From: an uncultured Halobacteria archaeon
Lineage (GTDB): Archaea > Halobacteriota > Halobacteria > Halobacteriales > Haloferacaceae
Direction of reading: 5' to 3'
NCBI GenBank assembly: GCA_937142015.1
Contig: CAKZQY010000289.1
Location: forward strand, 1-36,058
DNA: 36,058 bases
The notes under the pieces are model-generated. The model made no database searches. It saw only the letters and a program-made list of their open reading frames with translations, and was not told the origin of the DNA. The translations under genes and the position numbers were made by a program. Below are positions 4,502 to 21,573 of the stretch, piece after piece; within the stretch, counting starts at the first letter, position 1, and each line of letters begins with the position of its first letter.

Positions 4502-5341
4502 GAGCCCCGCGTGCGCCCGCTCGTACGAGACAGTTCCCGGGCGGTCACCACGCTGGCCACGGTAGGCTCCGAACTGGGTGTGGTTCACGCCGTCGAGTGA
4601 GACGGTCTGGGTCGTCGTCGGTGGCAGGCGGTCACGAGCCTCGCGGGACGCCGTTCGGTCGAGCACACCGTCGGCGGTCCCGGTCACGGAGAGCAGACGG
4701 AGACTCGTGTCACTCACGTCGCGGTCGCAGTAGGACGCGAACAGCACGACGCCAGCGACGCGGTTCGGGTGAGCGTCGGCGAAGCGACACGCAGCCACGC
4801 CACCGAGCGAGTGTCCGCCGACGTACCACCGCTCGACCGTCGACGGCGCAGCCAGCGGTCGCTCGGGGTCGAAGAGACCCGCGTCACCCGCGAACCGATC
4901 CGATTGACTCGCCTCGCTGGTTTCGATCACTCGTCCGGCGGCTCCGGTGTCGAGGAGCGCCAGATTCAGCGGCGGGTGTGGGATCACGACGGTGAGTCCC
5001 GAGGCGGCGACCAGCGGAGCGAGGACGGGAACGTACGCGTTCGGGTGGACACGTGCGCCGGGGTAGAGTACCAGACCTGTCGAGTCGAGTGCTCCGGCGG
5101 ACGCGTCACTTGTCGCCTCCGTCCCCGCGGTCTGTGTCGGTGCGAGCACGTAGCCAGCGTCAGTCGCGGTGACAGTCACGTCGGCGTCGGCGCGGACCGT
5201 CGAGAGAGAGTCGGACGGCGCGTGAAACGGTGTGGCGGCGTACCAGAGACCGACGCTCCCGGCGGCGAGGAGCACGGCGAGTGTCCACGCCGCGACTCGT
5301 TCGACGGTGATCCACCGGGACAGTCGCTGGAGTGAGGCCAT
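4466..5341 (-). CDS. Membrane-anchored alpha/beta hydrolase
   Basis: The 291-residue protein has an N-terminal membrane anchor (about residues 15-36, AAWTLAVLLAAGSVGLWYA) and then an alpha/beta-hydrolase fold. It carries a nucleophile elbow GGHSLGG with Ser178, an acid Asp224 in TGTADGVLD and His254 in GVNHTQFGAY, a complete catalytic triad. This matches the dienelactone hydrolase-like Abhydrolase_5 group. The active domain probably faces outward. The substrate is unknown. The ATG at 5341 is chosen over an upstream start at 5443 because the extra 34 residues are polar and would push the anchor inward. The last codons are triplicated downstream. Confidence 0.88.
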   Translation of the reverse strand: MASLQRLSRWITVERVAAWTLAVLLAAGSVGLWYAATPFHAPSDSLSTVRADADVTVTATDAGYVLAPTQTAGTEATSDASAGALDSTGLVLYPGARVHPNAYVPVLAPLVAASGLTVVIPHPPLNLALLDTGAAGRVIETSEASQSDRFAGDAGLFDPERPLAAPSTVERWYVGGHSLGGVAACRFADAHPNRVAGVVLFASYCDRDVSDTSLRLLSVTGTADGVLDRTASREARDRLPPTTTQTVSLDGVNHTQFGAYRGQRGDRPGTVSYERAHAGLRVTLVEFLTAS

Positions 5342-5683
5342 CGTGTCGGTGGAACAACCCGAACCGCATGTAGTTGACGGCTGTGACGCTGCGCGAGCAC
5401 GCACGGACCTATCGAACTGTGGGTAGTGACGTTCCTGTGACACGTTGTCGAGCAGGTGGGATCTATCTGGTGGTTTCGGGATGACACATCACAGATCACT
5501 GTCGGGACTCCTCGCGGATGGAACTCGGTGCGACAACTCGCCAAAATCACAAAACACTTATAACAGGCGATAGCAGTACCGTACACCCCTACCCATGGTG
5601 ACAGCACCGTCTGCCTCCGGCAGTGCCGTGCGGACGGAGCGGCAGCGGACGTGTCACCGCCCAACAACCCAACCAAGCAAACC
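5342..5683 (+). promoter_or_regulatory. Promoter and structured leader of the S-layer gene
   Basis: This gene-free stretch holds a clear TATA box (TTATAA at 5558-5563), implying transcription start near 5587 and a leader of about 95 nt. The leader contains an inner hairpin CTGCC-TCC-GGCAG (5611-5623). GGTGACA (5597-5603) pairs perfectly with TGTCACC (5652-5658) and closes the fold. The start region itself (CAACCCAACCAAGCAAACC before the ATG) has no Shine-Dalgarno sequence and should be unpaired. Haloarchaeal S-layer transcripts are known to carry long leaders. The first 190 bases hold the divergent hydrolase promoter region and nothing else recognised. Confidence 0.7.
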
Positions 5684-5687
5684 ATGA
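5595..5687 (+). other. 30-codon upstream ORF overlapping the S-layer start (ATGA)
   Basis: An ATG at 5595, shortly after the expected transcription start, opens a 30-codon frame ([16 protein letters not shown] then a Pro/Thr-rich tail). Its TGA at 5685-5687 overlaps the S-layer ATG (5684) by the ATGA arrangement used for translational coupling. It could be chance, because stop codons are rare at this GC content. No SD precedes it. Confidence 0.35.
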
Positions 5688-8600
5688 CAGAAGGTACACA
5701 CGACAAGATCCGCGCGCTGTTCCTGAGTGCGCTGATGGTCGTCTCCGTCTTCGGAGGCACCGTCGCGTTCGCAGGGACAGCGGCAGCGGTTGACGGCGTC
5801 AACAGGAGTTCCGTCACAGAAGTCGGGACTTCGCACAGCGAACTACCCAACGGCACAACAACAAGAATCAACATCAGTGCAAATTTCACCAATATCGGTA
5901 GCCAAGGTGACACTTCCTCTCCCCCGTCAAACTTCACCTACGTGCTTCCAGAAGAAGTTAACTTCACATCGCCCCCCAGTGTGGTCTTCACAGTCAACGG
6001 GACCGATGTTGACGCTAACAACGTCACGGTTGATGCAGCCAACCGGACAGCGAACTTCTCGTACAACACGTCGATAATCAGCGATGGTGCAGAAGCGAAC
6101 GTCACCTTGTTCGCAGAGGTTGAGACAAGTGGCGTGAGCGAAGGTAGCACTGAGAGCTTCGATATCACCGTCAATGTTGAGGAAGATGGCAGTGACGGAT
6201 TTGACAGCGATGAAACGCTCTCAGTGACAGTCGACAACGACGACCCGACCCTCCGCAAGGCCACTCACTACGACAACAGTAGTGATCCGACCGATGGTAA
6301 CCCGACCCCGATCGTCGAGCTGGCGTTCGACGATAACATCGACAGTGCGAACCTCGGCACGAGTAACGTGACCATCCTCCAGGAGGATGGAACGTCACTG
6401 ACCCCCACCAGTATTTCTGACGAAAATGATGAGGACGCACGAGTTGTCGTCGGACTCAGTCAAGTCTACACCGACCTGTCGAACATCAGTGTCAACGTCA
6501 ACGACACCGTGGGTAAATCCCTCACCATCGACAGCAGTCCGGACGGTGCCGACGACTTCGGTGTCACGTTCGCACCGGTGACAATCGACGCCACCAGTGG
6601 AGACATCGCACGTGACATCTTCACCGGAAGTAACATCGCGATCAGAAACGGCACCACGGATCAGGTCTACGGCATCAGCGGTCCCGACTTCGACCAGACG
6701 CGTGGGGCCGGTGTTGGCAGCCAGATCTACACCCTCAAGACCGGTGACCTCGAACTCGCAACCGGCGATTACACCATCGACAGCGGTAACAACGGGAACA
6801 TCACCTCAGGAAACGGTGCCAACTTCACGCTGTCGAACCTCGGTCTCGAAATAACCGACACGCCGGCAGACGACAACCCGACGACCGACTCGGACACGCT
6901 GTCAGTCACGGCAGAGTCCGACACCATCAACCGTGATGTCGATGTCGAGTTGCTGGACAGTGACGGCGATGTCGTCGACACGCTCAGCAACAGGAGAATT
7001 GACACCGACGGTCAGGTCACCGTCGAGTTCAACATCGCCAGCGATGGCCTCGACTTCACCGAGGACGACGCGGGCAACTACTCGGTTCGTGTCACTGACG
7101 TGAACACGCAGGTCGAGACGACCTCCGACGAGTTCGTCGTCAGCGAGCCGCGGGACTCCTCAGTCTCGTTCACTCAAGACGAGTTCGAGGAGCAGCGCGG
7201 TGACGTCCTCGAGTTCACGGTGAACATGACCAACACCCGCATCAACGGTGAAGACAACAGAGCGAACGTGACGTTCGGCTCCAACGAGTCCGGCTACAAC
7301 GTCACGTTCACCGTCGAGGACAACAGCGGTGACGGATCCGTCACGGTCCTGTTCAACACCTACAACAGCACGCTGAACGGCGCCAACGCCAGAAGTGGCA
7401 ACCTCGTCACCGCCGCTGGTGACAACGACGACGAAGTGCTCCAGAGCAGTGTCGAGGTCGTGAATGGCGTCCCGAGCGTCCTCGCAGACACGACGTACGA
7501 CCTCGAAGTCAACGCTCCGAACGCAGAGACGCGGCTGGCAGCAGCCGTGATCAACCCGCGCACGACGGGCGTCGTGAACACGTGGACCAAGTCGCAGGAC
7601 ATCAACATCGAGGACAAGGAGGACCTCCTCGGCTCCATCGGGACCACTGTCACCCAGCAGAACTACGTGGCAGAGAACGACCACATCGTCGTCCAGCTGA
7701 GTGGTGCTACCGGCCTCGAGGGACTGCTCGACGCGCAGAGTGAGTCCTCGTTCGCCGACGAGTTCACCAACGCGACGGATGAATCCAACAACATCACGCT
7801 GGAGCTCATCCAGCAGGATCCCGGTGCGAACAACGAGGCAGCCACGCTGAACATCACCGACAGCAGCCAACTGGTCAACGCCATCGGTGACGCAGACAAC
7901 GACACCTACTACCTCGTGGTCGACACGCAGCAGATCGCAACCGCCACCAGCGGTCGTAATGTCGGCGACCTGTCGGGGAGTACGTTCGATGTCAACTTCA
8001 GCGTCAACACCAACACTCGTGGCCTAGTCGAGGGCGACGAGGACGAAGTCATCTCTAACCAGATCGACCTCGAAGCACCCACGCTGGAGCTCACGAAGCA
8101 GAACGTCACAGCCGCGGAGAACACCACCGTCGAGGGCGAGACGAACTACGCCCCCGGGACGGAGTTCCGTGTCCGGCTCCGCACGACCGGTAACCCGGAC
8201 CAACGGTTCATCCGCTCGCAGAACGTCGACGTCCAGCCCGACGGAACGTTCACCGTCGAGGTCGACCTGCCGGACGCCTCACCCGGTGACGAGTACGAGA
8301 TCACCATCTCGCGGAGTGGAGCAAGCCTCCCGAGCGGCCTGACCACCAGCTACGACGGTGTGGTCCAAGGTGCTCAGGAGACGCCGACGGCAACGCCGAC
8401 GCCGACTGAGACGGCAACGCCGGAGACCGAGACGGCAACCGAGACGCCGGCTGCCAACGAGACGGAGACGACGGCGACCGGCACGCCGATGCCGAACATG
8501 ACGACGACGACGGCAACGCCGACGCCGACACCGTCGCCGACGCCGACACCGACGCCGACGCCCGAGCCGACGCCGACGCCGACGCCAGCGCCGACGCCGA

Positions 8601-8951: not shown

Positions 8952-9938
8952 ATGCCGAGTCTCTGGACCGACCTGTTCGCGTGGGCTGTCGTCGCCATCT
9001 TCCTCGCGGGGGTCACAGCGGAGTGGGCCAACCGCCGTCGTGGGGCCGACGTGGCCGGGCTCGCACGTCGGATCACCGCCGCCGCGTGGATCGCCTTCGG
9101 CGGGTTCTGGCTCGTTCTGTTCCCGCACTTCGCGTTCACACAGAAGAGCTACGTCGAGGGGATTCTCTCACTCGCTGCCATCCCCGCGTGTGTCTACGCC
9201 GCGTGGCTGCTGTACGACGGCCGCGACTCGTTGTTCGTCCTCTCGCGGGCCGTCGCCGTGATGGGACTGGTGTACCTCCCGTTCGAGACGATCCCCGCCG
9301 TGACACTGTTCGGCGTCCACCTGCCCGCGCCACGTCGGATTCTCATCGAAGTCGTCACGACACAGACCGGCGCAGCGATGGCGTGGCTCGGGTACCACCC
9401 GGAGCTCCTGCGCGGACCGGACGGCTACTGGAGCACCTACCAGTTCGTCACCGCCAGCGGACACCGGCTCAAGTTCACGATCCTCCTCGCCTGTACCGGA
9501 CTCGGGAGTATGGCCATCTTCGTCGGCCTCGCGGCCGCCGTGCGCGCGCCGCTCCGCCGGAAGCTGCGTGCCGTCGCCATTGCCGTCCCGATCATCTGGG
9601 CGCTGAACATCGTCCGCACGACGTTCATCGGGATCGCGTTCGGCAAACAGTACCTCCACGTGTTCCCCGAGCAGGTGTTGCTGCTGTTCGGCGCGTCTGA
9701 CCCGTACAAAGTGTCCTTCTTCCTCTCGGACCGCGTGATCAGTCAGGTGTTGGCAGTCGTCGCGTTGATCGGCGTCACGTACCTCGTCTTGCGGGAGCTG
9801 CCGGAAGTGCTGACCGTGATCGAGGACGCGTTGTACATGCTCACCGACGAGGAGTACGACCTCCACAGCGAGCTGGACCTCCCGCGTGAACCGACCGAGA
9901 CTGGCCACCGAGGTCGGTCTGGCGGCGGTGGGGCCTGA
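8952..9938 (+). CDS. artA: Archaeosortase A
   Basis: This 328-residue integral membrane protein has about eight hydrophobic segments and the exosortase/archaeosortase catalytic residues: Cys181 in ILLACTGLGS, Arg222 in LNIVRTTFIG and Arg261 in FLSDRVIS. These correspond to the Cys/Arg/Arg set known for Haloferax ArtA. The enzyme recognises PGF-CTERM tails of secreted proteins, removes the C-terminal helix and allows lipid attachment. It lies 208 bp downstream of the S-layer gene, which encodes the most abundant expected substrate. The C-terminal 60 residues are cytoplasmic and acidic, ending in a Gly-rich tail. It converges on dph5. The ATG at 8952 gives the first membrane segment immediately. 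Confidence 0.95.
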   Translation: MPSLWTDLFAWAVVAIFLAGVTAEWANRRRGADVAGLARRITAAAWIAFGGFWLVLFPHFAFTQKSYVEGILSLAAIPACVYAAWLLYDGRDSLFVLSRAVAVMGLVYLPFETIPAVTLFGVHLPAPRRILIEVVTTQTGAAMAWLGYHPELLRGPDGYWSTYQFVTASGHRLKFTILLACTGLGSMAIFVGLAAAVRAPLRRKLRAVAIAVPIIWALNIVRTTFIGIAFGKQYLHVFPEQVLLLFGASDPYKVSFFLSDRVISQVLAVVALIGVTYLVLRELPEVLTVIEDALYMLTDEEYDLHSELDLPREPTETGHRGRSGGGGA

Positions 9939-9957
9939 CTGATCTGCAGCCTCGCTC

Positions 9958-10764
9958 TCAGCGTTCCCGTCGTGTGACAGCGTCGTCGGGAGCCTCGGCG
10001 AACACGCGGAGCGCGTCGGCTTCGACGGCGTGGAGCTCGCCCGGAATCACCAGCGCGTGCAGTGGTGGACCGAACATCGTCGCTGCGAGCGCGGACAGTC
10101 GGTCGGCACGGACGGTCGGGTCCGGGCTCCCGGCACGAGCGACGGCGACGGCCAGCGCGTCGGCGTCCCAGTCGTCCGCGAGCAGCGCCGCGGCCTGGTC
10201 CGCGGTCATGAACTGATCGCTGTCGGGACCGGCGGGCGAGGACCCCGCGGCCTTGATGTCGAGAAAAACGAGTGTGTGGAGGCCACGCTCGCGGTTCGCA
10301 CGGATGCCGTCACGAACACTGTCGGGCACTCCCGACCCGCCGTGGGCGTACGGGAACGGGAGCGTCACGGCGCGTCCGAAGCGGTAGTTCTGGAGCCCGG
10401 TGAGCGACGCGACTGCCGACTCCGCAGTGACACCGTGGACGACGCTCGTCTCGATCCCCCGCTCGGCCGCTCGGAGCCTGAGATCCGTGTGCGTCGTGGC
10501 GATCAGCGGATCACCCGGGGTACAGAAGACGACATCCCCGTCTGTTGCGGCAGCGAGTATCGGCTCCGGGTCGCGCTCGACCCCGGCTCTGTCGCGGACC
10601 TCGACCTCGACGCCGTGGGCGTCTGCGACCGCGTCGAGGTCCGCACCGACCAGTCGGCTGGTGTACGTCTCCGCGAACACGCGGTCCGCCTCGCGGAGTC
10701 GCTCGCGCCCGGCGACCGTGATCGAGTCCTCGTCGTACAGCCCGAGTCCGACGAACGTGAGCAC
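9958..10764 (-). CDS. dph5: Diphthine synthase
   Basis: The 268-residue protein is the archaeal S-adenosylmethionine-dependent methyltransferase that builds diphthamide on elongation factor 2. Recognised features are the N-terminal LTFVGLGLYDEDSITVAG, the SAM-binding GDPLIATTH loop (about residues 83-91), VVHGVTAESAV, LQNYRFG and the HTLVFLDIK strand. Length and order are typical of DphB/Dph5. The start is a GTG at 10764. It is convergent with artA (19 bp between stops). The upstream RDD gene points the same way across a 39-bp gap, so the two may be co-transcribed. Confidence 0.95.
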   Translation of the reverse strand: MLTFVGLGLYDEDSITVAGRERLREADRVFAETYTSRLVGADLDAVADAHGVEVEVRDRAGVERDPEPILAAATDGDVVFCTPGDPLIATTHTDLRLRAAERGIETSVVHGVTAESAVASLTGLQNYRFGRAVTLPFPYAHGGSGVPDSVRDGIRANRERGLHTLVFLDIKAAGSSPAGPDSDQFMTADQAAALLADDWDADALAVAVARAGSPDPTVRADRLSALAATMFGPPLHALVIPGELHAVEADALRVFAEAPDDAVTRRER

Positions 10765-10803
10765 GGTCGGCGTTCGCGGGGGTGCCGAATAGCGGTGTCG
10801 GTG

Positions 10804-11664
10804 TCACTCTGCGCGGTCGGTCTCGTCGGTCCCTCCGCTTCCAGCGCGTGCGACGACGGTGTCGGCCGCGCGGTCGCCGAAGCGCTGGCGACCGTCCCAG
10901 ACGTCGACGAGGACGAGGAGGTACAGTGTCGGCAGGTCGAGCAGTCGGAGGAACGTCCGAAAGCCGGCAGCGAACGGGGAGATCGGTCGTCCTTCCGTGT
11001 CGACGACGACCAGCCCGAACAGCTTCTTGCCGACCGTCTTCCCCCACCGAGCCTCTGGGAGCGCGTAGTACCCCGCGCCGACGGCGAGACCGGCGAGCAC
11101 ACAGCCGGCCAACAGCACGTCGGAGACGAGGGTCGATCCGAGGATCACCCAGCCGAACCCGGCAGTCAGGAACGGCACCGCGGCGGCCCACAGCAGTCGG
11201 TGAACCCGGACGAGGAGCGAGCCGACGAGCCACGCGCCGACGACAGCGACCGCGGCCAGCAGACTCCCGAGCGGATCGAACGCCGCCAGTCCGAGCGTCG
11301 CCAGCCAGTTCGGGACTGCGACACGGGGGCCGGCAGTCGCCAGCGTCGCAATCGGGTGATCGTCGACGGCGTGAACGTCGAGATCGTTGTCGGCGGCGTA
11401 CTCGCGGGCGGCGACAATCTCCGCAGGGAGCGGCGAGCGGACGAGCAGCGCGTACAACGGCCACTGGACGACGGAGACGAGCAGCATCCCGAGCGCGGCG
11501 AGCGGCGCGCGTGCAAGCGCACGGAACGCCCGCTCGAAGCCGAAGCCGTCGACCGGGTACTCCACGAACACCGCGTCGACACCGTCGGCGACGCGGGCGA
11601 ACTCGCTGGCAACCTTCCTGCGCCGGTCCGCGTGGATCGCCCCGAACAGCCGGAGACCGACCAT
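10804..11664 (-). CDS. TraB-like/RDD fusion membrane protein
   Basis: The 286-residue protein appears to join two parts. The N-terminal part (GLRLFGAIHADRRRKVASEF, ADGVDAVFVEYP) resembles the TraB/GumN group by its opening strand with a His and its VFVEYP segment; this assignment is tentative. Several hydrophobic segments follow in the middle, including AVAVVGAWLVGSLLV and WAAAVPFLTAGFGWVIL. The C-terminus is an RDD domain, with WGKTVGKKLFGLVVVD, FRTFLRLLDLPTLYLL and RQRFGDRAADTVV. RDD proteins are membrane proteins of mostly unknown role, some involved in ion transport. The ATG at 11664 is preferred to a GTG at 11679. The tail after residue 270 is acidic and disordered. Confidence 0.8.
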   Translation of the reverse strand: MVGLRLFGAIHADRRRKVASEFARVADGVDAVFVEYPVDGFGFERAFRALARAPLAALGMLLVSVVQWPLYALLVRSPLPAEIVAAREYAADNDLDVHAVDDHPIATLATAGPRVAVPNWLATLGLAAFDPLGSLLAAVAVVGAWLVGSLLVRVHRLLWAAAVPFLTAGFGWVILGSTLVSDVLLAGCVLAGLAVGAGYYALPEARWGKTVGKKLFGLVVVDTEGRPISPFAAGFRTFLRLLDLPTLYLLVLVDVWDGRQRFGDRAADTVVARAGSGGTDETDRAE

Positions 11665-11986
11665 ACCCACACCTCTCACGCGAGGAAGTTTCCGCTGTCG
11701 GTCTGTGACAGCCGTGGAGACGCGTACAGGAAGTATTTAAGTCGAGAGCCGAGACAGTCGAGCGATGTCCCAGCCCTCCACACACGGCGACAGCCGACCG
11801 TGAGGATTGGGCCGACACGACACCGACAGACGCAGGCGAGTCTCTGTTCGGGCCGATGGAAACGGACGAGTGACCGACAGCACGTTCGGCTCTCGTCCCC
11901 CCGACCCTGCGTCACAGGGTCTTTGTCGCTCCGCGCCCTACAGAGGGTAGTTCCGACGGGGAGCAGTGCTCCCGTCGCATCGAACC
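11665..11986. promoter_or_regulatory. Divergent promoter and structured leader before the photolyase gene
   Basis: A TATA-like AAGTATTTAAG (11731-11741) is AT-rich on both strands and can serve the RDD gene (minus) and the photolyase side (plus). On the plus strand an ATG (11765) lies 24 nt after it and opens a 12-codon ORF (MSQPSTHGDSRP) ending at 11803. A perfect 7-bp hairpin follows, GACCCTG-CGTCA-CAGGGTC (11903-11921), then TTT. A 9-bp hairpin with one bulge (11955-11976) ends 10 nt before the photolyase ATG. No TATA box is visible at the leaderless position for 11987. Confidence 0.5.
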
Positions 11987-13537
11987 ATGACCCTCTGGCT
12001 GCTCGGCAACCAACTTTCGAGAGACGCCGCACCGCTCGCCTCGGAGGACAGTGTCCTGTTGATCGAGGCCGACGAGTTCGGAGAGCGACTGCCGTACCAC
12101 CCGTACAAGCTCACACTCGTCTTCTCCGCGATGCGTCACTTCCGAGACGACCTCCGCGAGGCGGGGTACGACGTGACGTACGTGCAGGCGGAGACGTTCC
12201 GCGAAGGGCTCGAACAGTACTACTCGGCGGCACCGGACGACGACCTCGTCTTGATGCGTCCGGCTGCACACCGCGGCGGGGAGCGACTGCAGGCGCTCGT
12301 CGAGTCGGTCGGCGGACAGCTCACGCTCGTCGAGAACGACCTGTTCGTCACCACGCCCGACGAGTGGGAGGCGTGGGCCGACGGACGCGGCGACAGCTAC
12401 AGACAGGAACACTGGTACCGACACGTCCGTCGGGAGACCGGCGTGTTGATGGAGGACGGCGACCCGGTCGGCGGGGAGTGGAACTACGACGACCACAACC
12501 GCGAGACGCCGCCCGACGACTGGAGTCCACCGCCGACACCCACCTTCGAGCCGGACGAGATCACCCGTGAGGTCCACGATTTCGTGACCGAGCGGTACGA
12601 CCACCTCTGGGGGAACCACGATCTCGACGAGTTCTGCTGGCCGGTGACGCGCGCGGAGGCGCTCCAAGCGCTCGAACAGTTCGTCACGGTCCGTCTCCCC
12701 GCGTTCGGTCCCTACCAGGATGCGATGGCAGACGGGGAGTGGGCGCTGAGTCACTCACTCCTGTCGCCGGCGATCAACCTCGGGCTGCTCGACCCGCTGG
12801 CGGTCGTCGAGCGTGTCACCGACGCCTACGAGGAACGCGGGGTCGCAGCCGGCGCGCCAGCCGAAGAAGTCCACCGCGAGGGGACACTCCCGCTCAACAG
12901 CGTTGAGGGGTTCGTCCGACAGCTGATCGGCTGGCGGGAGTTCGTGCGACACGTCTACCGGGAGGCGATGCCGGAGCTGTCGGCGACGAACCAACTCGAC
13001 GCGACGCGCGAGCTCCCAGAGCTGTACTACACGGGGGAGACGGACATGCACTGCATGTCGGAGGCCGTCGGCCACGTGTGGGACCGCGGCTACGCACACC
13101 ACATCGAGCGACTGATGCTGTTGTCGAACTTCGCCACCCTGTACGGCGCTGACCCCCACGAACTCGACGAGTGGTTCCGGTTCGGCTTCGTCGACGCCTA
13201 CGACTGGGTGACGACACCGAACACCGTCGGCATGGGCTCGTTCGCCACCGACCTGCTCTCCTCGAAGCCGTACACCTCCTCGGCCAACTACGTCGACAAG
13301 ATGAGCGACCACTGCGCGTCGTGTCCGTACTACCACACGAAGACGACCGGCGAGCGCGCGTGTCCGTTCAACAGCCTCTACTGGGACTTCCTGAAGGAGA
13401 ACGAGGAGACGCTGCGGAACACCGGTCGAATGGGACTGATGTACTCACACGTCGACCGGAAGAGCGACGAGGAGTGGACGGAGATCCGCGAGCGTGCCGC
13501 GACTGTCCGTGAGATGGCCCGCCGCGGCGAACTGTGA
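11987..13537 (+). CDS. Iron-sulfur (6-4) photolyase / cryptochrome-like protein (PhrB family)
   Basis: The 516-residue flavoprotein matches the FeS-BCP group that includes Agrobacterium PhrB: an N-terminal antenna-binding Rossmann domain (TLWLLGNQL, residues 1-130) and a helical FAD domain. Four cysteines, Cys356 (DMHCMSEA), Cys443 and Cys446 (DHCASCPYY) and Cys459 (ERACPFNS), align in spacing with the PhrB 4Fe-4S ligands. The paired His371-His372 in GYAHHIERL corresponds to the His required for (6-4) photoproduct repair. Light-dependent DNA repair is therefore the likely role, though some relatives are sensory. The ATG at 11987 is preferred to a GTG at 11966 that lies inside a hairpin loop. 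Confidence 0.93.
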   Translation: MTLWLLGNQLSRDAAPLASEDSVLLIEADEFGERLPYHPYKLTLVFSAMRHFRDDLREAGYDVTYVQAETFREGLEQYYSAAPDDDLVLMRPAAHRGGERLQALVESVGGQLTLVENDLFVTTPDEWEAWADGRGDSYRQEHWYRHVRRETGVLMEDGDPVGGEWNYDDHNRETPPDDWSPPPTPTFEPDEITREVHDFVTERYDHLWGNHDLDEFCWPVTRAEALQALEQFVTVRLPAFGPYQDAMADGEWALSHSLLSPAINLGLLDPLAVVERVTDAYEERGVAAGAPAEEVHREGTLPLNSVEGFVRQLIGWREFVRHVYREAMPELSATNQLDATRELPELYYTGETDMHCMSEAVGHVWDRGYAHHIERLMLLSNFATLYGADPHELDEWFRFGFVDAYDWVTTPNTVGMGSFATDLLSSKPYTSSANYVDKMSDHCASCPYYHTKTTGERACPFNSLYWDFLKENEETLRNTGRMGLMYSHVDRKSDEEWTEIRERAATVREMARRGEL

Positions 13538-13618
13538 CGAACTGTAACGAGTTGTGGCGAGCCCGCGACAGCGAACTGTGACAGTGAGACGGGACCCAGC
13601 GACGACGGGAAGACCTAG

Positions 13619-14227
13619 CTACAGCCGTTCGTCCGCGACAGTCGTCGTGTCGCTCGCACCGGCGTGGACGACGGCGACACGCGTCGGCAGACTCTCCGCG
13701 AACTGGACTCGCGCGGTGTACGTCCGGTAGACGATCTGCTGGGTACACACCGCTTGGGTCTCGACCGTCTCGACGACGAGTTTCAGGCGACCGGTCGCGG
13801 GGTCGTACTCGGTCGACTGGATCGCCGCGTGTGAACAGCCCGTCGGCCCCTCGATACAGCCCTCGACGACTACCGTGTCACCCGTCGTCGACACGCTCGC
13901 TGTCCCGGCGGAGCTCGCCGCGCAGTCCCCCGTACGGTCCAAACTCGCTGCTGCGATTGCTTCCGACTCCGTCTGGGTCGCTGTCGGTGTCGCCGTCTTC
14001 CGTGGTGTCTCCGTCTCTCGTGGTGTCTTCCTCTCTTGCGGTGTCTCCGTGTCCGGTGACGTTTCGGTCACGGTCCCCTCTCCGACTGACGCGGGTGTGG
14101 CGGTGTCTGTCGGCGTCTTCGTCTCTTCACCGGTGGCTCGGTCTCCGCCACCGGCACCGCCACCACTGGTCGTACAGCCGGCGAGCCCCCCGATTCCGAT
14201 CAGGGCGAGTAGCTGCCTCCGTCTCAT
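13619..14227 (-). CDS. Tat-type lipoprotein with Thr/Glu-rich linker
   Basis: The 202-residue secreted protein begins MRRRQLLALIGIGGLAGC, a short twin-arginine signal ending in a lipobox, so Cys18 would carry the lipid. A Gly-rich stretch and a long Thr/Pro/Glu linker (about residues 30-90) lead to a compact C-terminal domain with four cysteines (GDCAASS, EGCIEGPTGC, AVCTQQ), which could form two disulfides. The family is not recognised. The ATG at 14227 is chosen over 14254 because a TATA box sits on the minus strand at 14253-14257, about 28 nt upstream of 14227; this fits a leaderless transcript and would place the other ATG inside the promoter. Confidence 0.85.
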   Translation of the reverse strand: MRRRQLLALIGIGGLAGCTTSGGGAGGGDRATGEETKTPTDTATPASVGEGTVTETSPDTETPQERKTPRETETPRKTATPTATQTESEAIAAASLDRTGDCAASSAGTASVSTTGDTVVVEGCIEGPTGCSHAAIQSTEYDPATGRLKLVVETVETQAVCTQQIVYRTYTARVQFAESLPTRVAVVHAGASDTTTVADERL

Positions 14228-14251
14228 ACCTCCCGGTAGGGTCTGTGCAGC

Positions 14252-14287
14252 CATATACCTCGCGGATGCACAAACAGATCTTTGTGC
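14252..14287 (-). promoter_or_regulatory. TATA box with adjacent inverted repeat upstream of the lipoprotein gene
   Basis: The minus-strand TATA (GGTATATGG, 14251-14259) is 28 nt upstream of the ATG at 14227. Ten bases further upstream lies GCACAAA (14268-14274), CAGATC, TTTGTGC (14281-14287), a perfect 7-bp inverted repeat. Its position just upstream of TATA/BRE fits a binding site for an activator or repressor. On the plus strand the repeat is followed by TTTT, so a terminator is an alternative. Confidence 0.5.
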
Positions 14288-14509
14288 TTTTCAGTTGAAC
14301 ACGGACGAGTGACGGGTGGAGAAACGGGCACATTCGAATTCGACGGGTTCCGCCGTGAGGTCGACTCGACGAGATCGAACGCACAGCACACGACACGGTC
14401 ATACGGTCGTGCGTAGTGATTTTCCGTGACTGTCGCGGTATCGGGCGGTATCACGTCGCTGCGGTGCTCTCTGTCGGTCGTCGGTGGTAACGATCTACGC
14501 ACGACCGCA

Positions 14510-15814
14510 TCAGTCCCCGGGGTCTGCGACACGCTCGACAGTCCGTTCCTCGGCCGCCGCCGCCCGCGTGAACACGACCCAGAACACGCCGGACGCGAAG
14601 ACGATGAACCCAGCAGCAGTGTAGAAGGCAGCCTCAACCGAGACGAAGTCTTTGATCAGACCGACACCGACGGGGCCAGTCACCTGTCCGACCTTCCACG
14701 AGATCGAGCGGAGACTCATGCTGGAGGCGACGGAGTCGAACTGTTCGCCCTCCTCGACGAACAGCGCCATACTCGCCGGGAGTCGGATGCTGTCGGCGAC
14801 ACCCAACACGGAGTAGGCCGCAAACAGCGCGAAGAACGCGCCGCCCAGCCGCTGAACCCCCCCGAACGCGCGGATTCGGATCGGCGTAATCGCCCCCTCG
14901 AAGAAGAACGACAGGGGGACGAGCGCAGTCCCCACTCCGTACAGCAGCGCGCCGACCACGACGAAGTACTGTTTCTTCCCAACCCGATCCGAGAGGTCGC
15001 CGACGTACCCCTGTGTGAGTGACTTGGTGAGCTTCCCGCCGGCGAGAATCCACCCGATGACGAGCGCGTTGATGCCGAACTCCGTCCGCGCGAGAATCGG
15101 GAGGAAGATGATCACCGCCATCTTGCCGACGGAGAAGGCGACCCGGAACGTGACGAGCGCCTTCACCATCGGCCGGGCCAACAGCGCTCGCAGCGTCTCC
15201 GTCCCGCCGCCGGCGTCGTTCTCCACGCCGCCACCGGGGTCGTCACGGAGGAACCCGAGCACGAGGAGGAACGCGGCGATCGTGATCACCGTCAACACGA
15301 GGTAGGTGAACGTGAAGTCGTACGTGTACAGCAAGTAGCCGCCGACCGCGTCACCCGCGAGCGAGGAGAACGCCGCGACCTGGTTGTACGACCCGAGCCA
15401 CCGGCCGTTCTCGTCGTCGGGCGAGATGTGACCGATCACGGTCGAACCGGTGATCCAGAGGATACTCGCGCCGACGCCTTGGAGAATCCGGATCAACACG
15501 ATGTCGACCGCAGAGTCGACGAGCACGAACCCGAAGAACACGACTACGTTGATCGCCAGCCCGGCGAGGAGCCACCGCTTGGCGTTCCCCGTGTCGACCT
15601 TCCGACCGAGCGGGAGCACGATCAACAGCTGGACGACGGCGAAGCCGGTGCCGAACAGCCCCTCGACGAAGCCGGTCGTGCCGAACTTGTCGGCGTACAG
15701 CGCCAGCGCGATCAGAATCGTCGAGTACGCCTGACTCCGAGCGAACGCCGTCCCGGCGAGCGCCGTGAACTCCCTGTCGCGCAACAGTGCGACCGAGTTG
15801 CCGAACTGAGCCAC
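14510..15814 (-). CDS. Major facilitator superfamily transporter
   Basis: The protein has about 434 residues and twelve predicted membrane helices in two halves separated by an acidic loop (FLRDDPGGGVENDAGGG, near residue 205). A loop 2-3 motif of the MFS type is visible (LPLGRKVDTGNAKRWLL), and the matching second-half loop reads GYVGDLSDRVGKKQYF. The substrate cannot be read. I chose the GTG at 15814: a consensus minus-strand TATA (TTTAAA, 15841-15846) lies 26 nt before it, fitting a leaderless transcript. The alternative GTG at 15832 would be only 8 nt from that box. Six extra residues are the only difference. Confidence 0.88.
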   Translation of the reverse strand: MAQFGNSVALLRDREFTALAGTAFARSQAYSTILIALALYADKFGTTGFVEGLFGTGFAVVQLLIVLPLGRKVDTGNAKRWLLAGLAINVVVFFGFVLVDSAVDIVLIRILQGVGASILWITGSTVIGHISPDDENGRWLGSYNQVAAFSSLAGDAVGGYLLYTYDFTFTYLVLTVITIAAFLLVLGFLRDDPGGGVENDAGGGTETLRALLARPMVKALVTFRVAFSVGKMAVIIFLPILARTEFGINALVIGWILAGGKLTKSLTQGYVGDLSDRVGKKQYFVVVGALLYGVGTALVPLSFFFEGAITPIRIRAFGGVQRLGGAFFALFAAYSVLGVADSIRLPASMALFVEEGEQFDSVASSMSLRSISWKVGQVTGPVGVGLIKDFVSVEAAFYTAAGFIVFASGVFWVVFTRAAAAEERTVERVADPGD

Positions 15815-15838
15815 TGTTTCGTATCGAAACACTCCGTA

Positions 15839-15846
15839 GATTTAAA
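15839..15846 (-). promoter_or_regulatory. TATA box of the MFS gene
   Basis: Minus-strand TTTAAATC is a consensus haloarchaeal TATA element. It places the transcription start at or within a few bases of the GTG at 15814. Confidence 0.65.
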
Positions 15847-15906
15847 CACGGCCATCCGGGCGACTGTGGCCGAAACCATCCGGGGAACCACACAGTCGCA
15901 CCGTAG

Positions 15907-15912
15907 TTTAAG
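15907..15912 (+). promoter_or_regulatory. Probable TATA box of the pseudokinase operon
   Basis: TTTAAG at 15907-15912, in an AT-rich GTAGTTTAAGTAG context, predicts transcription start near 15934 and a leader of about 57 nt before the ATG at 15991. Confidence 0.45.
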
Positions 15913-15990
15913 TAGTTCCACACAGTACGACCGAGTACAGTCGAACGCGGACCGGAGTCAGCGGGTGTTGGGGTCGACGGGGACCGACAG

Positions 15991-17724
15991 ATGGCAGCAC
16001 CGAACCGCACCACTGTAGGACGGATCGCCAGACAGGTAGCGACGGATATCGACGGCACGATCCAGAACCTCCCAGTGGTGGTGGACGCGCTCGATCACCC
16101 GGACAGGACGATCAGGCTGACCGCGATGTGGGCGCTCGTGGTCGTCGCCGACTTCCGCCCGAACACGCGGGACTCCATCGTCACGCAGGCGAAGTCACGC
16201 GCAGCCGTCGAGGCCCAGTTCGTCGTCGATATTCTCACCAACCAGTCCGAGCTCTCTCCCGAGGAAGCGGAGACGGTCGACGACGGTCCCGGGCTGCCGA
16301 GTTCGATCCAGCCCCCGGAGAGTGGGGGTGACGACGGCGACCAGTCGAGTAGTGGACTCTCGGGCCCGGACCCGTCGTCGAACGAGACAGCGAGCGACGG
16401 GGTCGGCACGGCCGGCGAATCGGCACACGGCGGCATCACCAACGCGGAGCCCGGTGCGGCACTCGATCCCGGCACTCCCACCGGCAGATCGGCGGGGCCC
16501 GATCAGGAGGGGCCGCTCAGAATCCACCCAGACGCACAGAAGGTGGTCCAGACAGTCGTCGAGGAGATGTGGAAAGCGCCACAGCGCACCCCGTCACTGT
16601 TGAGTCTGTTGGAACACGACAGCCACCACGTCAGACTGACAGCGATGTGGGGTGTCGCGCTGATGGCGGAACACCACCCGACGAACGTCAACCACCTCGC
16701 AGCCCGGATTCGACAACACGAGTCGAAGGAGTCGGACTTCCTCGTCGAGATGCTGGATCACTACCACGACGTACAGGTGAGTGCCGCCGGACAGGTGGAG
16801 GTGACACTCGCACCCCCCGAAGAACAGCTCGACGGGACACTCTGGGGGCCGTTCATCACCTACCCCAAAGTGGAAGACCGCGTCGTGGGCGAGCAGTCGA
16901 ACACGTTCACGCCGGAGTCGGACGTGCTCCAGGCGGTGAGTTCCATCGAGCTCGTCGGGCTGTCGCGCCACGAGCGGGTGTACGTCGCTGCCGGCACACT
17001 CGACAACGAGTACACGAAGTTCAACATCCACACGTACGTCCCGGACGGCCGGTACGCGATCAAGGAGTACCAGCGGAACTTCCAGCCCGCCATCGACGGG
17101 TGGATTGCCGTCGACGAGCTGGAGAACGTGGCGTCCGTCCACGACTACGGTCGCACGCCCCACCCGTGGGTCGCAACTGACTACCTCCCGCGGCCGTTGT
17201 GGCAGTCCGGCCGACTCCCACCCGGGACGGCCGTGCGGACCGGCATCGAGCTGTGTGACGCCGTCGGGACGATGCACCGCGGCGGCACTGCTCACGGCGC
17301 GATCTCGCCGTGGTCGATCGGGCTCGTCCGTACGGCGTCGGCGTACGTTCCGAAGCTGACACGCGTCGGCATGGCGGCCCACCTCGGCGACGAGCGAGCG
17401 CTCAGACACGACGAGCGGTTCGCGCCGCCGGAGGCGCTCAGCCAGGAGTACGGCTCGGTCGGCCGACTCGCAGACGTGTACGGACTCGGTGTGACCCTGT
17501 ACGCGATGCTCACCGGCGAGGCACCGCCGTACCCACGGAACCTCGACGGTGAGTTCGTCCCCGTAGACGTTCCGGACCCGACCACCACGGTCTCCTCGCT
17601 CCCCTCGAAGGTAGACACGATTGTCCAGACTGCGACGGCGACGGAGAAGCCGTGGCGCTACGAGTCGGTCAGCAGACTGGGACAGGACCTCAGAAGTGTG
17701 GTCTCGGAGGCCGACGAACAGTGA
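15991..17724 (+). CDS. Pseudokinase with duplicated HEAT-like N-terminal domain
   Basis: In this 577-residue protein, an alpha-helical unit occurs twice (about residues 10-88 and 177-260) with near-identical cores (IRLTAMWALVVVAD and VRLTAMWGVALMAE). An 85-residue acidic, disordered linker separates the copies. A protein-kinase fold follows (about 315-570): the ATP-lysine motif is present (YAIKEY, Lys358), as are APPEAL (478-483) and DVYGLG (Asp495). The catalytic loop reads HGAISPWS instead of HGDLKPEN, and the DFG position reads VGM. The catalytic Asp, the metal Asn and the DFG Asp are thus all missing, so it should be an inactive scaffold or ATP-sensing protein. Its stop overlaps the next gene by 4 bp. 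The kinase-fold call is confident; the HEAT-type name is by pattern only. Confidence 0.85.
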   Translation: MAAPNRTTVGRIARQVATDIDGTIQNLPVVVDALDHPDRTIRLTAMWALVVVADFRPNTRDSIVTQAKSRAAVEAQFVVDILTNQSELSPEEAETVDDGPGLPSSIQPPESGGDDGDQSSSGLSGPDPSSNETASDGVGTAGESAHGGITNAEPGAALDPGTPTGRSAGPDQEGPLRIHPDAQKVVQTVVEEMWKAPQRTPSLLSLLEHDSHHVRLTAMWGVALMAEHHPTNVNHLAARIRQHESKESDFLVEMLDHYHDVQVSAAGQVEVTLAPPEEQLDGTLWGPFITYPKVEDRVVGEQSNTFTPESDVLQAVSSIELVGLSRHERVYVAAGTLDNEYTKFNIHTYVPDGRYAIKEYQRNFQPAIDGWIAVDELENVASVHDYGRTPHPWVATDYLPRPLWQSGRLPPGTAVRTGIELCDAVGTMHRGGTAHGAISPWSIGLVRTASAYVPKLTRVGMAAHLGDERALRHDERFAPPEALSQEYGSVGRLADVYGLGVTLYAMLTGEAPPYPRNLDGEFVPVDVPDPTTTVSSLPSKVDTIVQTATATEKPWRYESVSRLGQDLRSVVSEADEQ

Positions 17725-18641
17725 TCACGCCGACAGCACTCCCCGGTACGGAGTTCGCCCCGACGGGTGTCGATTCGTCGTCGACAGTCGTCGATCCGTC
17801 GTCGACAGTCGTGGCTCCCGCCTCGCTCGTCGGCACGATACCCGACGCACTCGTCCCACTCGTCGGCACGACGCACGACGCACTCGTCCCACTCGTCGGC
17901 ACGACACCCGATGCGATGGTCCCACTGGTCGGCACGACGCCGGGGACGAACCTGATCTGGTTCGTCGGCTTCGTGTTGTTGGGTGCGCTGTCCGCGTGGA
18001 TGGCGACACTCGCCTACCGGATCTCCGGGGCCTCCCCGGAGTCACAGGGATCACTCTGGTGGTACTTCACCCTCGTCGGCATCGTCGGCACGCTCGTTGG
18101 GGGTGTCGGGGGGGCGCGTGTGACCCTCGCAGAGCCCCCGTTGGCGTTCCGGGCGCTCGTGCCGACGCTGTTGCTGGGCTACGTGTTCGTCTGTGCGCTC
18201 ACACTCCGCGAGGCGCAGTACAACGCCGTCTTCTCCAACACGGAACTCGACCGACTCGGGGAGTACCCCACGCGGCGCGGCGTCGAGGTTGGTATCGTCG
18301 TCGGTATCTTGGGTGTCGGGATTCCGCCGTTGTTCCTCGACGGCACCCTGTCTGCGGTGTTGTCGATTCTGCTGGTGCCGGCGGTGGTCGGCTACGGCGG
18401 CTACTACTTCCAGCAACACCTCCGTGGCAGCGCGACGCAGGGAACACTCATCGACACGCTGATGCGTCACCTCCTGTTGACGCTCGTGTTCCTCTCGCTG
18501 GTGGTCGTGGCGACGGCTGTCCTCCTCGTGTCTCCCGAAGAGGTGCTGTTCGACAGCCTCGGCGCGACGTTCCTGCTGATGGGGACCTCCTCGCTGGTCG
18601 CGGTCGTGATCAAGTTCCGTCAACACGCTGTCGCGGTGTGA
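17721..18641 (+). CDS. Seven-TM protein coupled to the pseudokinase
   Basis: The 306-residue protein starts at a GTG overlapping the pseudokinase stop (GTGA), so the two are probably translated together. The first 70 residues are low-complexity and lie outside the membrane. They comprise two VDSSSTVV-type repeats (24 bp) and then about four copies of an 11-residue unit DALVPLVGTTP. Seven hydrophobic segments follow at about residues 75-97, 113-133, 143-163, 187-208, 212-233, 250-272 and 280-302. No transporter or enzyme motif is visible. The pairing suggests a membrane partner for the soluble pseudokinase. The family is unrecognised. Confidence 0.82.
   Translation: MITPTALPGTEFAPTGVDSSSTVVDPSSTVVAPASLVGTIPDALVPLVGTTHDALVPLVGTTPDAMVPLVGTTPGTNLIWFVGFVLLGALSAWMATLAYRISGASPESQGSLWWYFTLVGIVGTLVGGVGGARVTLAEPPLAFRALVPTLLLGYVFVCALTLREAQYNAVFSNTELDRLGEYPTRRGVEVGIVVGILGVGIPPLFLDGTLSAVLSILLVPAVVGYGGYYFQQHLRGSATQGTLIDTLMRHLLLTLVFLSLVVVATAVLLVSPEEVLFDSLGATFLLMGTSSLVAVVIKFRQHAVAV
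17764..17943. repeat. In-frame 24-bp and 33-bp tandem repeats
   Basis: GTCGATTCGTCGTCGACA-type units of 24 bp (17768-17815) are followed by 33-bp units containing CACTCGTCGGCACGAC (about 17826-17943). They encode the N-terminal region of the 7-TM protein. Copies are imperfect, with several silent and conservative changes. Confidence 0.8.
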
Positions 18642-20688: not shown

Positions 20689-21573
20689 GTGAAGGCCGAA
20701 ACAACGCTCGAATCACGAGTCCTCTCTCGTGTCGACGACGGTGGTAGTGTCTGTGAGGATCTTACAGGCGCTACAGCGGACACGGTCTGGGTGTTAGATG
20801 GGGCAAGTGGTGCAGTGAGAGAAAACCTAACAGACGCACCTAGCGATGGTCGGTGGTACGTCGAACAGTTCGACAATTATCTGACTGAGAGTGAGGGAGC
20901 CTCTGCACCGCTCCCAGAGGTAGTCCGGCGTGGCGTACGGCGTGTCGGCGGTCGACTGCGGACACTCACTGAGGACACAGAACTGACACGAGTGAGACAG
21001 CCACTCACTGCTGGCGCAGTACTCCGGGCGAGAGACGGCTGGCTCGAATACCTGCTGTCCGCAGACTGTAACCTTGCCCTACAGCGCCCCGACGGTCGAA
21101 CTGAAGTGATTCGTGGTGACGGACCACGATCCTTAGATGCCAGTGTACTCGAGTCGATTCAGCGACTGAAGCAGAACGGGGGGCTCTCACACGAGGTTGC
21201 ACGTCGCCGGACGAGAAACCAGATTGTCGAGAATCGTAGACAACTGAACACACCCGGCGGGTACTGGGCGCTGTCTGTGGACACACGAGCGGTTGACCAT
21301 GCACGGGGCTCGACCCTGAATCCGGCCAGTGTCGACAGGATAGCGCTGTACACTGACGGGTTCGAACGTCTCACCGAGTTGTACGAGGCAGTCGGCTACT
21401 CAACAATCTTCGAGAGAGCAGAGGAGGGGAGCCTCGCCCCACTTTTCGAGAAGCTCCGAAGTGTCGAGTCGTCGGATCCTAACTGTGAACAGTATCCGCG
21501 TACGAAGCCGAGTGACGACGCTGCGCTGTCTGTCGTTGATATCCCTGATAGACTCGGATCGTTGTCACGGTAA
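20689..21573 (+). CDS. PP2C-like protein phosphatase
   Basis: The 294-residue protein shows the scattered metal-binding pattern of PP2C/PPM phosphatases: VWVLDGASG (Asp37-Gly38), a LEYLLSADCN strand in place of the GDS motif (Asp126), GGYWALSVD, then IALYTDGFERL (Asp223-Gly224) and SDDAALSVVD (Asp276-Asp277). All key Asp positions are present, so activity on phosphoserine/threonine proteins is plausible, although the GDS site is degenerate. An in-frame TAG at 20683-20685 means the GTG at 20689 is the earliest possible start. No TM segment is seen. The nearest kinase-fold protein is the pseudokinase 3 kb upstream. It follows the AT-rich pair by 110 bp and runs the same way. Confidence 0.75.
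   Translation: MKAETTLESRVLSRVDDGGSVCEDLTGATADTVWVLDGASGAVRENLTDAPSDGRWYVEQFDNYLTESEGASAPLPEVVRRGVRRVGGRLRTLTEDTELTRVRQPLTAGAVLRARDGWLEYLLSADCNLALQRPDGRTEVIRGDGPRSLDASVLESIQRLKQNGGLSHEVARRRTRNQIVENRRQLNTPGGYWALSVDTRAVDHARGSTLNPASVDRIALYTDGFERLTELYEAVGYSTIFERAEEGSLAPLFEKLRSVESSDPNCEQYPRTKPSDDAALSVVDIPDRLGSLSR

Follow-up and report, generated by a model that had tools for sequence, protein, structure and literature searches.

A haloarchaeal contig carries a gene for a HEAT-pseudokinase protein that overlaps the gene of a seven-transmembrane (7-TM) protein, and the question raised by this locus is whether the two constitute a functional unit and, if so, what role a kinase fold without its catalytic residues would have in it. 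We analysed the whole stretch of 36,058 nucleotides (contig G000:C289, hereafter the window); its close relatives include a MAG that bears the label Haloferacaceae.

The gene pair and the kinase fold in the window

Both genes lie on the forward strand and share the predicted 4-bp overlap, GTGA (Table 1). Comparison of the window with three genomes of the same genus gave dN/dS values of 0.25-0.41 for the pseudokinase gene and 0.25-0.41 for the 7-TM gene; purifying selection therefore acts on both (dN/dS about 0.25-0.4), and neither is decaying in the genus of the window. Further along the window, a 294-aa ORF (20689-21573) resembles PP2C_2 very weakly, at E 0.035, which does not reach the cut-off of the family.

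Table 1. Coordinates of the features identified in the window.
Feature	Position	Strand	Basis
HEAT-HEAT-pseudokinase gene, 577 aa	15991..17724	+	ORF translation, Pfam, AlphaFold
Helical (HEAT-like) copy 1, aa 8-85	16012..16245	+	AlphaFold helices; E 9e-12 to copy 2
Linker, aa 86-179, disordered and of low conservation	16246..16527	+	pLDDT < 50 for aa 91-172; 22% identity to G002
Helical (HEAT-like) copy 2, aa 180-259	16528..16767	+	Pfam HEAT aa 201-229; AlphaFold
Pseudokinase domain, aa 311-577	16921..17721	+	Foldseek to PknB/PknI E 1e-10; within-genus identity 65-78%
His347, at the beta3 (VAIK) lysine position	17029..17031	+	Alignments, AlphaFold
Lys358 of YAIKEY, in helix C (originally taken for the ATP-lysine)	17062..17064	+	AlphaFold
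Catalytic-loop equivalent HGAISPWSI, without Asp and Asn	17293..17319	+	Alignments
DFG equivalent R458-V459-G460 (RVG)	17362..17370	+	Alignments
P479-P480-E481 at the APE position; 63/63 paired copies have the Pro and the Glu	17425..17433	+	Alignment
Subdomain IX Asp495, invariant in 63/63 paired copies	17473..17475	+	Alignment
4-bp start/stop overlap GTGA of the two genes	17721..17724	+	Sequence
7-TM membrane protein gene, 306 aa, GTG start	17721..18641	+	ORF translation, AlphaFold; no Pfam family
Tandem repeat with a 33-bp unit (3.4 copies), translated as (VPLVGTTPDAL)n; lies in the N-terminal tail, which is unstructured	17826..17938	+	
Seven-helix core, aa 73-305	17937..18635	+	AlphaFold

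The helical domain of the first protein had been proposed to be duplicated, and the similarity between its two copies, together with their AlphaFold helices, bears this out; the linker that separates them is disordered and fast-evolving. The protein qualifies as a HEAT-repeat protein, defined by tandem antiparallel helix pairs that match HEAT profiles: Pfam HEAT scores 26.0 bits, above its cut-off of 23.5, and the AlphaFold model has the helices. The kinase fold was likewise recovered by several means: the Pfam Pkinase match of the window protein (26.3 bits, E 6e-6) lies just below the Pfam cut-off, PknB is matched with E 8e-8 by sequence and E 7e-11 by AlphaFold/Foldseek, and the nearest solved structures are PknB and PknI. 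The domain thus belongs to the protein kinase superfamily by its fold, which is bilobal and Hanks-type, with the APE and subdomain IX Asp kept.

Where a catalytically active Ser/Thr kinase has the Lys of VAIK, the Asp of HRD, the Asn of the catalytic loop, and the Asp of DFG, this domain carries H347, A437, S442, and R458, which makes it a pseudokinase by sequence: a kinase fold without the catalytic motif residues. The original prediction had correctly recognised the loss of the catalytic Asp, the metal Asn, and the DFG Asp, as well as the retention of the APE (P480-E481) and subdomain IX (D495) residues, but it erred in considering the ATP-lysine conserved. Multiple alignments and the AlphaFold model reject K358 for this role: it belongs to Y355-AIKEY, within helix C (356-374), while strand beta3 (340-349) carries H347. 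The alpha-C Glu is replaced as well, by Ala, and the copy in the window thus retains none of the five: Lys, Glu, catalytic Asp, Asn, and DFG Asp.

Catalytic loss across the paired kinase domains

We counted these residues in an alignment of 63 kinase domains paired with a 7-TM gene. The catalytic Asp is present in none of the 63, which supports the pseudokinase assignment and widens it to the clade. The beta3 Lys is found in 6/63, the alpha-C Glu in 3/63, the Asn in 8/63, and the DFG Asp in 31/63; the catalytic-loop His, the Pro and the Glu of APE, and the subdomain IX Asp each occur in 63/63. In kinases generally, the last three of these residues hold the C-lobe together.

To place these copies among other haloarchaeal kinases, we built a tree from which the motif columns were left out; it was obtained by a quick search, and its support is moderate. 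One group (SH-aLRT 91) includes all 49 paired rows plus 10 rows entered as unpaired, all of them without the Asp: one of the 10 was later found to be paired (G059), another is a case of separated genes (G075), and the other eight are paralogues from family f4 that are nested inside the paired clade and located elsewhere in their genomes. This clade contains no Asp-bearing kinase and is separate from the catalytic HxDLKPxN haloarchaeal kinases, and few changes (3 in all) are needed to explain the loss of the Asp on the tree. This grouping of all paired copies, away from the catalytic kinases, makes a single loss of the catalytic Asp probable. PknB-type Ser/Thr kinases and the haloarchaeal kinases with HLDLKPxN/DWG motifs, related kinases of the same order, share the fold of the paired clade but keep the catalytic residues that it lacks.

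Other degenerate or clustered kinase genes were also observed. Of the second, unpaired pseudokinases of the f4 genomes (L160-L163, L166, L167, L171, L179), several lie close to a gene for an Lrp-type regulator, glutamine synthetase, or a thermosome. In the same genome as the window, contig G000:C425 (L063) carries two divergent large genes, 9517-12267 (-) and 12381-16739 (+), each encoding a degenerate kinase domain (catalytic loops HHNIDPTT and HRAITPDR) followed by PQQ/BamB-type beta-propellers, with no 7-TM partner within the contig examined. Another haloarchaeal genome has about ten kinase-like genes within 47 kb (G049:C5, 427-474 kb; L064-L066), most of them with intact HLDLKPxN/DWG motifs.

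The retention of the DFG Asp in 31/63 and of the beta3 Lys in 6/63 means that nucleotide binding may survive in some lineages. These residues, together with the catalytic-loop His in every paired copy and an intact predicted fold, would favor a domain that still binds nucleotide or carries out unusual chemistry instead of being a pure scaffold; SelO is a case in which a rewired kinase fold performs unusual chemistry. We consider this explanation unlikely, given that the lineage of the window has lost the Lys, Glu, Asp, Asn, and DFG Asp.

Linkage and joint decay of the two genes

A profile of the 7-TM protein was searched against 394 haloarchaeal genomes of one order, yielding matches in 104 of them. 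The strong matches (E < 1e-18) number 89, one per genome except for two truncated copies in G233, and a kinase-profile search of the same 394 genomes showed that at 85 of these 89 loci the 7-TM gene is directly preceded, in the same orientation, by a kinase-like gene; reciprocally, a 7-TM gene accompanies 77 of the 79 best full-length matches to the kinase profile. The pairing exceeds chance, although the genomes are related and, consequently, the counts are not independent events. The original prediction had named unlinked genes in relatives as the result that would speak against it, and our study found the opposite. The four exceptions are G075, with the genes 92 kb apart; G194, with about 3.5 kb between them and opposite strands; G209, where the contig ends; and G224, which has no linked kinase. 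The arrangement in G194 (L108, 7-TM gene and HEAT-pseudokinase at 5167-5904 and 9319-10884) is a natural uncoupling of the pair.

Overlaps of 1-13 bp occur in 31 gene-called paired loci, 19 of which overlap by 4 bp; in family f17 (Haladaptataceae), most pairs have hundreds of bases between the two genes, a gap that often holds a small gene on the opposite strand. The kinase-like and 7-TM genes are the only neighbours common to all nine lineage groups, and the genes on either side of many pairs run on the opposite strand. A larger operon was rejected because no third gene family is common to the lineages: DUF7504, HalX, DUF3179, and GH15 neighbours are lineage-specific. The DUF7504 genes lie near the pair in f17 and f10 (L101 8386-8919, L051 13232-13876) and are not a shared neighbour elsewhere. 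The proteins of the pair are only 20-35% identical between lineages, which indicates that the linkage is old. In a phylum-wide draw of 295 genomes, matches were confined to the same order, and a scan of genome contigs with the full protein matched only the known close relative. The weaker 7-TM matches, which come from families f7 and f4, constitute a group of their own, and the six neighbourhoods checked (L152-L157; about 60-70 bits to the profile, 57-84% identity among themselves) all lack a kinase.

The two genes also degrade together. In the Haladaptatus genus g53, which includes Haladaptatus salinisoli (G198), both genes are broken in G230 and both truncated in G233, while G088 and G214 retain a 7-TM remnant alone, with no kinase; among the g53 loci examined, there was no case of one gene intact with its partner lost. 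Short overlaps are common in compact genomes and three of the separations are real (G075, G194, and G224), so that two functionally unrelated genes might merely share one transcript; linkage at 85/89 loci across 20-35% inter-lineage identity while all other neighbours differ, together with the joint decay in g53, renders this very improbable. That the two genes travel and decay together suggests a previously undescribed module for sensing or regulation at the membrane.

Kinase models of PADLOC (PD-T4-6, MAD6, PglW) resemble the kinase domains of the pair, which could point to a component of anti-virus defence. However, the matches are partial and limited to the kinase domain, the 7-TM protein is unmatched, there is normally one copy per genome, and no third neighbour is shared; we regard such a role as having hardly any likelihood. 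A known anti-phage defence system was rejected, as no full-length PADLOC match was obtained and the kinase-domain matches are generic.

The 7-TM protein and the proposed module

The AlphaFold model of the 7-TM partner (pTM 0.75) contains seven transmembrane helices, mostly with pLDDT > 90, preceded by an N-terminal tail of 72 residues predicted to be disordered; the 33-bp tandem repeat that expands this tail is absent from three relatives of the same genus. The predicted topology is N-out/C-in, with positive charges inside. The most conserved segments of the family are the cytoplasmic loops and the C-terminus (mean relative entropy of 1.95-2.50 for cytoplasmic segments vs 1.07-1.32 for outer loops, the least conserved), and the best conserved polar residues (R163, E164, R186, E189, T242, D245, and Q301) are cytoplasmic by the positive-inside rule. 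This conserved side fits a docking face, for which the pseudokinase is the obvious candidate partner.

With GPCRs and microbial rhodopsins, the 7-TM model shares its seven helices, the N-out/C-in orientation by charge, and a weak Foldseek resemblance: they are its top matches, with E 0.014 at best and a TM-score of about 0.5. It differs from them in having no family match by sequence, and the weak resemblance is no evidence of homology. A microbial rhodopsin was ruled out, since the Schiff-base Lys of mid-TM7 is missing and the only TM7 lysine, K298, lies at the cytoplasmic end. Against Pfam and NCBIfam profiles, the 7-TM protein matched no Pfam family and no transporter family, and, generic kinase and HEAT entries apart, neither protein of the pair reached a curated family in Pfam or NCBIfam. 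In the plasmid records found, the 7-TM family is named only 'hypothetical protein', and for a Halorussus pair the NCBI annotations read 'HEAT repeat domain-containing protein' and 'hypothetical protein'.

Given the conserved cytoplasmic face, we propose, with a probability of roughly 0.55, that the HEAT-pseudokinase is a non-catalytic adaptor docked on the cytoplasmic side of a receptor- or transporter-like protein. The bicistronic haloarchaeal module would place the 7-TM protein in the membrane as sensor or effector, its N-terminus outside and its C-terminus inside, while the pseudokinase would bind it physically from the cytoplasm and thereby be recruited to the membrane; the kinase fold, deprived of ATP/Mg chemistry, would act as a docking and switch domain, and the HEAT repeats would bind a downstream protein that turns a putative signal into an output. 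The topology, the cytoplasmic conservation, and the co-decay agree with the original reading of a membrane receptor and its scaffold or regulator, in which binding, ligand, and output are putative. The separations in G075, G194, and G224, the unpaired f4 paralogues, and the distant 7-TM homologues without a kinase count against a module.

One may also, though only tentatively, read the 7-TM protein as a transporter or channel and the pseudokinase as its cytoplasmic regulatory subunit, in which case the module would regulate flux and not function as a receptor. The 7-TM protein has no outside ligand-binding domain, its family conserves an R-E at the end of TM3, a Y-G in TM5, and a G-T-x-x-D loop, and no conserved downstream signalling gene lies beside the pair, all of which would agree with transport; nevertheless, no transporter family is matched, and the top Foldseek matches, none significant, are GPCRs and microbial rhodopsins.

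The adaptor that we propose has counterparts in bacteria. The pseudokinase of mycobacterial MviN (MurJ) cannot bind ATP and recruits FhaA, and in EssB/YukC of type VII secretion a degenerate kinase fold serves as a membrane scaffold (PMC12599244). MviN, of the ActPs3 family, likewise combines a membrane protein with a degenerate PknB-type kinase fold, but it is a single actinobacterial polypeptide of peptidoglycan synthesis without HEAT repeats, whereas the haloarchaeal pair is archaeal, with two genes and 7 TM; EssB/YukC, in turn, is monotopic and part of a secretion machine, with neither a 7-TM partner nor HEAT repeats. In place of the single-chain kinase-TM fusion of MviN and EssB, we found separate genes, and the pseudokinase chain has its helices in the HEAT and kinase parts. 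By analogy, the pair may work like these membrane pseudokinase scaffolds, which does not imply family membership.

Conserved pseudokinase families have been described in eukaryotes and bacteria, and the sole mention of archaea in the review consulted is in its reference list. As originally stated, no description of an archaeal pseudokinase/7-TM pair was found, in our case among the open-access papers searched. Should the 7-TM protein be a seven-helix receptor without a rhodopsin sequence match that signals via a dedicated HEAT-pseudokinase adaptor, a doubtful prospect at present, it would represent a new form of archaeal transmembrane signalling based on a non-catalytic receptor/transducer pair. 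Our study describes a clade-wide, probably single-origin, catalytic loss in a selected domain that is tied to one membrane family across haloarchaeal families. The paired clade offers a clean system in which to ask what a kinase fold does without catalysis, and an unnamed 7-TM family of hypothetical proteins gains an assigned partner.
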